The notes under the pieces are model-generated. The model made no database searches and was not told the DNA's origin. It saw nothing but the letters and a program-made list of their open reading frames with translations. A program made the translations under genes and the position numbers. This document shows, one piece after another, positions 36,394 to 42,135 of a DNA stretch of 64,000 nt. Numbering within the stretch: the stretch's first letter is position 1; every line of letters begins with the position of its first letter. The DNA lies in contig NZ_NBOE01000002.1 of NCBI RefSeq assembly GCF_002104515.1, positions 124,001-188,000 on the forward strand, given 5' to 3'. The stretch is from Colwellia polaris (lineage in GTDB: Bacteria; Pseudomonadota; Gammaproteobacteria; Enterobacterales; Alteromonadaceae).

Positions 36394-36408
36394 AGGGCTT
36401 TTCTTTTT

Positions 36409-36445
36409 ACAGGGAGAAAAGAATGAGAAAATCAAGAGTTGACTT
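36409..36445 (+). repeat. Degenerate left end of the 106-bp palindromic repeat (family A)
   Basis: ACAGGGAG followed a few bases later by GAATGAGAA matches the left arm of the intact repeats at 41-42 kb. No right arm is seen before the GxxExxY gene, so it is probably a truncated relic. Confidence 0.55.
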
Positions 36446-36494: not shown

Positions 36495-36869
36495 ATGGAA
36501 ATGGATTTTACGGGTAAAGTCATAGGTTGCGCTATTGAGGTACATAAGCAATTAGGTCCTGGACTATTAGAGTCAACTTATGAGAAATGTTTGATGTATG
36601 AGCTGTATTTGAATGGTATAACAGCACAATCTCAAGTTATTTTGCCTATATGTTATAAGAATATAGATATTGAAGCAGGTTATCGGCTAGATATACTGCT
36701 ACCAAACAAGCTAGTGATTGAGCTTAAATCAGTTGATAAAATTATTCCTGTGTATTCAGCACAATTGTTAACTTATATGAAGTTAACTGATATAGATAAA
36801 GGTTTACTGATTAATTTCAATGTTAAAAAGTTAGCGGATGGTGTGAGAAGATTTAATTTGTCTTTTTAA
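36495..36869 (+). CDS. GxxExxY protein, PD-(D/E)XK nuclease-like (copy 1)
   Basis: 124 aa. It has the family-naming GxxExxY motif (GLLESTY, residues ~23-29), then Asp66 (YRLDI), Glu76-x-Lys78 (IELK) and Gln90-x3-Tyr94 (AQLLTY). E, D, ExK and QxxxY are the layout of RecB-type PD-(D/E)XK nucleases. The biological role of the family is not known to me. It is wedged between rmlA and rmlC on the same strand, with degenerate palindromic repeats on both sides. By my count about 100 of 122 residues match copy 2 at 41373. AAAGGA 8 bases before supports this ATG, though the start shared with copy 2 is the ATG at 36501. Confidence 0.88.
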   Translation: MEMDFTGKVIGCAIEVHKQLGPGLLESTYEKCLMYELYLNGITAQSQVILPICYKNIDIEAGYRLDILLPNKLVIELKSVDKIIPVYSAQLLTYMKLTDIDKGLLINFNVKKLADGVRRFNLSF

Positions 36870-37001: not shown

Positions 37002-37098
37002 ACAAGGAGGAATGAATGAAAAGGGAATGAGGAACTACTTTAGCCATATTCAAGTACTTTATGTTTATCTCCTGTAGTCCTCCTTCATTCCTCCTTGT
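37002..37098. repeat. Family A palindromic repeat, diverged copy before rmlC
   Basis: 97 bp ending in a perfect 15-bp inverted pair: ACAAGGAGGAATGAA at 37002-37016 and its complement at 37084-37098. The interior shares words with the 41-42 kb copies (ATGTTTA near the centre, CTGTAGTCCTCC on the right). It lies about 130 bp after GxxExxY copy 1 and directly before the rmlC leader. Confidence 0.85.
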
Positions 37099-40972: not shown

Positions 40973-41328
40973 ACAAGGAGGAATGAATAAGAAGTTAATG
41001 AGTTAGAGCTTTAGGTATTTTAGACCTTCTATGTTTATTGGTGTTTACCTCATGTAGTCCTCCTTGTTTTCTCCCTGTGAGATATTTTTATTTTTTTACA
41101 GGGAGGAGTGAATGAGAAGTTAATGAGGTAGGGCTTTAGGTATTTCAAACATTCTATGTTTATTAGTGTTTACCTCCTGTAGTCCTCCTTGTTTTCTCCC
41201 TGTGAGATATTTTTATTTTTTTACAGGGAGGAGTGAATGAGAAGGGAATGAGTTAGGGTTTTAGGTATTTTAAACTTTCTATATTTATTAGTGTTTACCT
41301 CCTGTAGTCCTCCTTGTTTTCTCCCTGT
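40973..41328. repeat. Three tandem 106-bp palindromic repeats (family A) upstream of GxxExxY copy 2
   Basis: Copies at 40973-41078, 41098-41203 and 41223-41328, each 106 bp, with an exact 125-bp period and a T-rich spacer. Units end in ACAGGGAG (ACAAGGAG in the first) and CTCCCTGT. Nested stems are visible inside: GAGGTA with TACCTC, and AAACAT with ATGTTT around the centre (41145-41160 in the second copy). Each unit carries a GGAGG followed by an ATG and a stop within a few codons. The rest of 40902-41372 holds no gene. Confidence 0.93.
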
Positions 41329-41372
41329 GATACATTATATTTAATAGCTTTAAAGGATTAAGGTGTATTGAA

Positions 41373-41741
41373 ATGGATTTAACAGGTGAGGTTATAGGTT
41401 GCGCAATTGAGGTACATAAGCAATTAGGTCCAGGGCTATTAGAGTCAACTTATGAGAAGTGTTTGATGTATGAGTTGTCTTTGAATAATATTAATGCATA
41501 TGCTCAAGTTGTATTACCTATCTGCTATAAAGGTATGAATATTGAAGCGGGTTATCGATTAGATATTATGTTACCCAGTGAATTAATTATAGAACTTAAA
41601 TCAGTCGATAAACTTATTCCCGTGTATTCAGCACAACTATTAACTTATATGAAATTAACTAATATAAATAAAGGTTTATTGATTAATTTTAATGTTAAGA
41701 AGTTAACGGATGGTTTACGCAGATTTAATTTGCCTTCTTAA
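41373..41741 (+). CDS. GxxExxY protein, PD-(D/E)XK nuclease-like (copy 2)
   Basis: 122 aa. GLLESTY (residues 21-27) names the family; Asp64, Glu74-x-Lys76 (IELK) and Gln88-x3-Tyr92 (AQLLTY) complete the RecB-like nuclease layout, so the active site looks intact. The codon upstream of the shared start is ATT GAA rather than ATG GAA, so translation must begin at 41373; TAAGG lies 9 bases before. It lies between galU and pgi, same strand, with three 106-bp palindromic repeats on each side. The close match to copy 1, including the leader TAAAGGATTAAG, points to recent duplication. Function unknown; a role in repeat movement is inference. Confidence 0.9.
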
Positions 41742-41786
41742 TTTTAGCATTTAACCTTTTTTATTTTCTGTGAATTATTACTTTTT

Positions 41787-42135
41787 ACAGGGAGGAATGA
41801 ATGAGAAGGGAATGAGTTAGGGCTTTAGGTATTTTAAACTTTCTATGTTTATTAGTGTTTACCTCCTTTAGTCCTCCTTGTTTTCTCCCTGTGAGATATT
41901 TTTATTTTTTTACAGGGAGGAGTGAATGAGAAGTTAATGAGGTAGGGCTTTAGGTATTTTAAACTTTCTATGTTTATTGGTGTTTACCTCATGTAGTCCT
42001 CCTTGTTTTCTCCCTGTGAGATTTTTTTTACAGGGAGGAGTGAATGAGAAGTTAATGAGGTAGGGCTTTAGGTATTTCAAACATTCTATGTTTATTAGTG
42101 TTTACCTCCTTTAGTCCACCTTATTTCCTCCTTGT
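41787..42135. repeat. Three more 106-bp palindromic repeats (family A) downstream of GxxExxY copy 2
   Basis: Copies at 41787-41892, 41912-42017 and 42030-42135, each 106 bp, same orientation as the upstream three; periods 125 and 118 bp. The last copy is slightly diverged at its right end (CTCCTTGT). The stretch 42136-42260 before pgi holds no ORF. Confidence 0.93.

Follow-up and report, generated by a model that had tools for sequence, protein, structure and literature searches.

The galU-pgi region of Colwellia polaris raises the question of whether a gene for a small nuclease-like protein and the repeats that surround it belong together and, if so, what kind of element they form. The window analysed here is a stretch of 64,000 nucleotides, in which six 106-bp repeats lie on the + strand in a single orientation, three on either side of a gene of the GxxExxY family, between neighbours that we assigned to galU and pgi by reading the open reading frames (ORFs). 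Repeat comparison places units 1 to 3 at 40973..41078, 41098..41203 and 41223..41328, and units 4 to 6 at 41787..41892, 41912..42017 and 42030..42135; the spacings between successive starts are 125, 125, 564, 125 and 118 bp, which confirms the same-orientation array with a mostly 125-bp period given in the preliminary description. Pairwise identity among the six units is 84-96%. The 5' end motif matches the window 15 times, compared with a mean of 0.06 in 100 shuffles, and the 3' end motif 7 times, compared with 0 in shuffles; counts so far above those of the shuffled window exclude a chance origin of the repeats. Between unit 3 and the start of the gene, the galU copy has no private purine-rich left arm.

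The gene within the array (copy 2; 41373..41741, + strand) encodes a 122-aa protein with a predicted PD-(D/E)XK nuclease fold, assigned from profiles, an alignment and a structural model. The protein matches PF13366 with an E-value of 1.1e-39 (135.8 bits, cut-off 22) and TIGR04256 with an E-value of 6.8e-41 (139.3 bits, cut-off 35). An alignment of 32 sequences shows no variation at E24, Y27, D64, K76, Q88 and Y92 and a conservation of at least 90% at E74, so that the E, D, ExK and QxxxY residues, which had been reported as intact in this gene between galU and pgi, are indeed present. These residues fit a nuclease of the RecB/Cas4-like PD-(D/E)XK group. The predicted structure (pLDDT 95.3) has 4ic1 (SSO0001, a Cas4 protein) as its best Foldseek match (E 1.2e-4, TM 0.51, rmsd 12), followed by lambda-type exonucleases with E above 0.02, and sequence searches with E up to 1 returned no solved relatives. 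Profile searches of four proteins of the family gave PF13366 only, along with sub-cut-off Cas4-like and DUF matches in distant members, and PF12784 (Rpn/YhgA, PDDEXK_2) is absent among these matches. The PADLOC and PHROGs profiles detect no anti-phage defence or phage gene in the window protein or in the protein of locus L042, and yield weak matches for that of L118 only. At two other loci (L291 and L292), from two genomes of family f12, arms of the kind described below are absent and the GxxExxY frame stays open for 624 aa; so long a frame may have arisen by chance in GC-rich DNA or belong to a domesticated copy.

Missing from the preliminary description is a second GxxExxY gene in the same window, 4.9 kb upstream of copy 2. 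This copy 1 (36501..36869, + strand; 122 aa; PF13366 E 2.0e-39; alternative in-frame ATG at 36495) has rfbA-like and rfbC-like neighbours and shares 83% nucleotide identity with copy 2. It is preceded by a left half-repeat, that is, a 5' arm (36407..36445, + strand, end motif with 0 mismatches), and followed by a whole repeat (37002..37098, + strand), which has a shorter core and is recognised as a member of the same family by its end motifs and by repeat comparison. The genome to which the window belongs contains these two GxxExxY genes and several further arrays without a gene; when the arrays are compared, both ends are conserved and the cores differ. Among the 43 end-motif sites of this genome, 8 are at the two genes and 35 elsewhere. 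Repeats lying mostly far from the gene had been named in the preliminary description as evidence against a link; taken literally, this is the situation here, and a REP- or MITE-like relation would produce just such a pattern. In one array of the genome (L028:4950-5450), the repeat core contains a second hairpin with CACCGAG- and CGAGG-like units, which looks as if one kind of element had been inserted into another.

A TIGR04256 search of 17 genomes of the genus identifies six genes in five genomes, all six of which adjoin the same repeat ends. The arrangement varies among these loci: at L029, the gene is set within a single unit, between its left and right ends; at L033, two half-repeats are located to the left of the gene and many whole repeats to the right; and the rfbA-side copy of the window is preceded by a half-repeat and followed by one repeat. 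The symmetry of three repeats on each side is therefore real at galU-pgi and is not a rule, so that, of the original interpretation, the association of gene and repeats stands and symmetry as a general feature does not. The end motif is present in 11 of the 17 genomes, and the reversed pattern in none; the five gene-bearing genomes hold 177 of the 218 sites, compared with the 12 others (Mann-Whitney p 0.0018), and one genome (G002) has 18 sites and no gene found. With every gene flanked and more motifs in gene-bearing genomes, the idea of a repeat family tied to its gene in a REP/RAYT-like relation is borne out within the genus.

The galU-pgi intergenic length is readable in 15 of the 17 genomes; in four of them, this space is empty and 48-67 bp long, and in another (G013), repeats are present and the gene is absent. 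The locus thus differs among relatives, and the empty site, the lack of which would have spoken against the earlier proposal, exists. In related genomes without the GxxExxY element (L130, L133, L139 and L140), the space between galU and pgi holds unrelated AGCTTTCAGTTT-like and GACTAAAGTCCGACC-like repeats and thus seems to be a general landing place. The Pgi query also retrieves, in the genomes of the genus, further full-length relatives with 43-53% identity (G000:C22:229825-231348 and similar places) as well as broken ones (G000:C12:316716-318260 and G010:C152).

In other genera, the flanking sequence differs and the plan is the same: three 7-bp units precede the gene and recur in reverse complement behind it, with units such as CACGAAG, CACAGAG and CACGGAG (CACRRAG and variants) spaced 8-10 bp apart. 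A scan of genome contigs yielded 80 GxxExxY loci from 20 taxon groups, defined by record titles, several of which are classes of one phylum. With 200-bp flanks, 34 of the 75 loci that could be scored (flanks were short at 5 of the 80) have inverted repeats above the 99th percentile of 1546 windows from the same loci. With 150-bp flanks, for which 155 of 159 loci in all were scored, including 76 of the 80, the median score of these 76 is 19 vs 10, and 35 exceed the 99th percentile of 1900 control windows. A score of at least 20 is attained by 36 of the 76 loci, spread over ten of the 20 taxon groups, vs 4 of 136 other ORFs of the same loci that are flanked on either side by 40 nt or more of non-coding DNA. 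For 60 loci from multi-copy genomes, which are the same genomes as in the first set with a few places repeated, the median is 21.5 vs 11, and 32 exceed the 99th percentile of 979 controls. Terminal inverted repeats are thus present in about half of the scored loci. The automatic gene start may fall inside an arm, as at the betaproteobacterial loci L079 and L080, which score 32 with 200-bp flanks and under 17 in the tally that uses automatic starts. The periodicity of the arms is apparent in the left arm, where the best self-match has a lag of 8-10 nt in 53 of 69 loci (69 of 72 arms were used) vs 15 of 72 control stretches.

Not all loci conform to this plan. Among 20 loci from other proteobacteria outside family f47 (18 of the 21 gene-bearing genomes there, with the window's own genome, G468 and G360 set aside), 11 have arms that score above every control of their own locus, several of them with units other than CACRRAG, and 9 have no clear arms, so that the earlier concern that such genes might generally lack repeats applies in part; copies that have become worn or domesticated may account for the loci that lack arms. 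The genus of the window, judged from its motifs, fits the plan in a derived form: by eye, one side reads CAGGGAG followed by two AATGAG-like units about ten apart, and the other side CAGGGAG, CAAGGAG and CAGGAG. These arms are asymmetric, and the inverted-repeat threshold is passed by none of the six loci.

The two arms of a locus match each other, and those of separate loci differ. In a set of 150 distinct loci, obtained after removal of 5 duplicates, the left arm finds its best partner among the 150 right arms at its own locus in 50 cases and ranks its own right arm in the top 5% in 77, and paralogs of one genome (G230) carry different arms. Protein identity is correlated with arm similarity (rho 0.145 for the left arm and 0.170 for the right, with neither value reached in 500 permutations), and the corresponding value for the distal flank, 300-370 bp away, is -0.016; this calculation covers 146 of the 150 proteins, with the observed values taken from pairs below 85% identity and the permutations from all pairs. 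This weak correlation might have arisen because gene and arms descend together, and need not signify recognition. We are confident that, in many bacteria, the gene and its arms constitute a single unit. Repeats do collect in intergenic regions, small intergenic genes are often found near unrelated repeats, and galU-pgi holds unrelated ones in other genomes, but the distant-locus control comparisons and the co-occurrence tests described below refute an explanation of the association by coincidence, which we find hardly credible.

A more substantial alternative is that MITE-like arms are moved by some other recombinase and that the GxxExxY gene is a passenger between two copies. This would account for the excess of gene-less copies over gene copies, for genomes that have copies and no gene, and for the galU copy, where the gene simply sits between two array units. 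Nevertheless, we consider it unlikely, given that the same gene family is found between arms in many distant groups, with other ORFs at a score of 20 in only the 4 of 136 cases noted above, and that the arms abut the start and the stop of the gene (median distances of 10 nt to the start and 9 nt to the stop in 85 loci) and correlate with the protein. Other cargo between arms was sought in the flanks of the 80 loci, and seven ORFs of at least 60 aa reach a score of 20; two of these are themselves GxxExxY genes, which again argues against a mere passenger, and the rest have no periodic CAC-type arms, except for a short-repeat run beside L103.

Because the arms can pair, the protein might instead act on a hairpin in the transcript, as in intervening sequences or RNA-based addiction. 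The preliminary description called the repeats palindromic, which holds in part: of three window units folded as + strand RNA, one has a z-score of -3.6, close to that of a unit from elsewhere in the genome (-3.5), the other two are unremarkable (-1.3 and -2.0), and in the window repeats the two arms' inner units complement each other poorly. Across 85 loci with scores of at least 15, there is no G-U signature, with 138 arm transitions wobble-tolerated on the coding strand vs 131 that are not (p 0.71), and Rfam gives no match at the gathering threshold and seven weak ones (E 0.09-0.7). An RNA-level element, unsupported by either test, appears quite improbable.

The dispersal of gene-less copies can be followed beyond the genus. 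In the family, the gene is present in 13 of 196 genomes and the strict triplet pattern in 13 of 192, with the reversed pattern never encountered; when the window's own genus is set aside, the triplet occurs in 9 of 10 gene-bearing vs 4 of 174 other genomes (p 1.3e-11). In a phylum sample of 397 genomes, the triplet occurs in 21 of 43 gene-bearing vs 17 of 354 other genomes (p 2.6e-13), with 2 reversed-pattern sites; this signal comes mostly from family f47, within which the comparison is not significant (18 of 22 vs 10 of 17, p 0.11), and outside f47, the triplet is found in 3 of 21 vs 7 of 337 (p 0.016). One genome, G381, has 78 triplet sites and no gene found.

The type of the arms was read at the first sites listed for each genome, at most 20. 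Gene-less copies are of the gene's arm type in five of the six genomes with one readable type (G076, G087, G100, G156 and G177); the gene's arm type differs from that of most gene-less copies in G127, and G109 has gene-less copies of both types. Three sites that are the arms of genes themselves (G127, G156) were left out of this typing, the only site of G190 is its gene's own arm, at least one G177 site lies near its gene, and the gene arms of G029 are unreadable. Copy numbers, counted in 42 genomes chosen as gene holders, reach 15 matches per genome, some of them broken. Carriage by phages or plasmids is ruled against by the records: GxxExxY occurs in 0 of 50,697 phage records, in 8 of 72,556 plasmid records, all predicted to be non-mobilizable, and at one locus in viral contigs.

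Signs of movement come from the comparison of individual sites. Between relA and mazG, genome G100 contains a 449-bp stretch that comprises the arms and the gene, with a PF13366 protein as its sole ORF; the flanks meet in G127, where a single base separates the two aligned pieces; and in G066, 104 other bases occupy this place. By eye, the joined G100 flanks equal the G127 empty site in length, without target duplication. This is the one clean filled/empty pair with the gene that was read, and an empty site that lacks exactly the element could also result from precise loss. No DDE, HUH, serine or tyrosine recombinase was found in the element. Three gene-less hairpins of G100, the third of which is weakly anchored, are in the same places in G127 and absent in G066, and G127 lacks a 331-bp hairpin-containing stretch that G100 has. 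We read these presence/absence patterns as signs of insertion and loss, the direction and mechanism of which we infer. At another place (L268:5520-5710), a gene-less hairpin and its surroundings are near-identical in G100 and G127, against a divergence of 12-15% in the adjoining sequence, which may point to recent conversion or transfer.

The same observations bear on the possibility that the arms are binding sites of a domesticated nuclease, employed in repair, recombination or control of its own gene, with mobility past or marginal. The protein is under strong purifying selection (dN/dS 0.04-0.10 in six in-register pairs; the 9 of 15 pairs that were out of register were left out), the gene has stayed long at galU in three genomes (L022, L031 and L032), and plasmid, phage and viral records are as few as given above, all of which such a host function would explain. 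It would be harder to reconcile with the patchy distribution across the family, with multiple matches per genome that include broken pieces, and with presence/absence between sister species, and we regard domestication as somewhat unlikely.

Our preferred reading, to which we assign a probability of roughly 0.6, is that of a small mobile element whose PD-(D/E)XK nuclease would act on its own arms and whose organisation would resemble that of REPIN/RAYT, assembled from unrelated parts. The locus would represent one lineage of a small chromosomal element that consists of a gene for a GxxExxY nuclease of about 120 aa and two inverted terminal arms, each built of roughly three 7-bp units at distances of 8-10 bp. 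Gene-less copies, which retain the arms and a short core, would be dispersed as hairpins and grow into tandem arrays, probably through recombination or slippage, and the six 106-bp repeats would be one such array. We envisage that nuclease protomers bind the arm units side by side, about one helical turn apart, and that the predicted nuclease cuts or nicks at the arms, as a consequence of which, we propose, the element and its gene-less derivatives would move or be copied into AT-rich intergenic DNA. Action of the nuclease itself on the arms, driving the spread, is the simplest mechanism and, in our view, a probable one. More tentatively, and with odds somewhat below even, the element would stand for a new class of transposable elements, found across many bacterial phyla. 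A lone PD-(D/E)XK nuclease of 120 aa would here recognise the iterated 7-bp units of both arms and promote its own spread as well as that of the gene-less hairpins, and the sequence of the units would co-evolve with the specificity of the protein.

Repeats of the CACGAAG-, CACAGAG- and CACAGATG-like families occur in environmental genomes, and such a class, if it exists, would explain them. Should our reading hold, it would assign a function to a protein family that so far has no more than a motif for a name, and an originator to a set of periodic intergenic repeats; it would also suggest that the REPIN/RAYT arrangement evolved twice, the second time around an unrelated nuclease. The variation of unit sequences across paralogs of one genome makes the putative recognition code directly testable.

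In the literature searched, which included no preprints and few subscription papers, GxxExxY appears, in the portions of text that were available, without any tie to repeats, and TIGR04256 is not mentioned. A word search of one further article (PMC10969869) gave no matches. Twelve arm strings were absent from the literature text accessible to the search, apart from work on fish eDNA (by title). Given this coverage, an earlier description of such an element is possible.

In REP/RAYT systems, a genome carries a nuclease gene, or a few of them, and numerous scattered hairpin repeats; the RAYT protein (TnpA-REP) is a Y1 HUH transposase, and a GTAG or CGTC tetranucleotide marks the foot of the REP hairpin. 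As in REP/REPIN-RAYT systems, the number of repeats of the GxxExxY element goes with the gene, more weakly in the phylum sample without f47. Unlike RAYT, the GxxExxY protein is a PD-(D/E)XK nuclease homolog (PF13366) with no Y1 HUH match, and unlike in REPs and REPINs, the arms consist of three spaced 7-bp units, with the gene itself between them. By eye, the arms start with CAGGGAG or CACRRAG type units, and neither GTAG nor CGTC marks the hairpin foot; some window units do contain a GTAG, which lies within their 3' part, away from the foot. Terminal inverted repeats, gene-less derivatives and intergenic insertion are shared with MITEs and their parent insertion sequences, from which the element differs in its periodic arms and in the lack of a known transposase in the 449-bp copy. 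Unlike many insertion sequences and MITEs, it also shows no target-site duplication at the single empty site (G100 vs G127); many mobile elements are known to insert without one. The fold and the motif set are like those of Cas4/RecB-like nucleases, as indicated by the 4ic1 match and by weak matches of Cas4 profiles to the protein of L118, whereas the window protein is much shorter than Cas4, matches no Cas4 profile and has galU and pgi as neighbours. A precedent for a MITE family linked to a PD-(D/E)XK nuclease gene comes from Thiomargarita, where, according to the accessible part of the report, the hupL MITEs, known from one organism and with a 10-bp direct repeat at their ends, were proposed to derive from YhgA-type elements with a PDDEXK_2 nuclease (PMC4853749). 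The PDDEXK_2 nuclease family (PF12784) is a different one from PF13366, and matched arms are not analysed in the same part of that report (PMC4853749). A PDDEXK_2-linked MITE family has thus been proposed before (PMC4853749), and the arrangement of the GxxExxY element resembles that of REPIN/RAYT; it shares no component with either.
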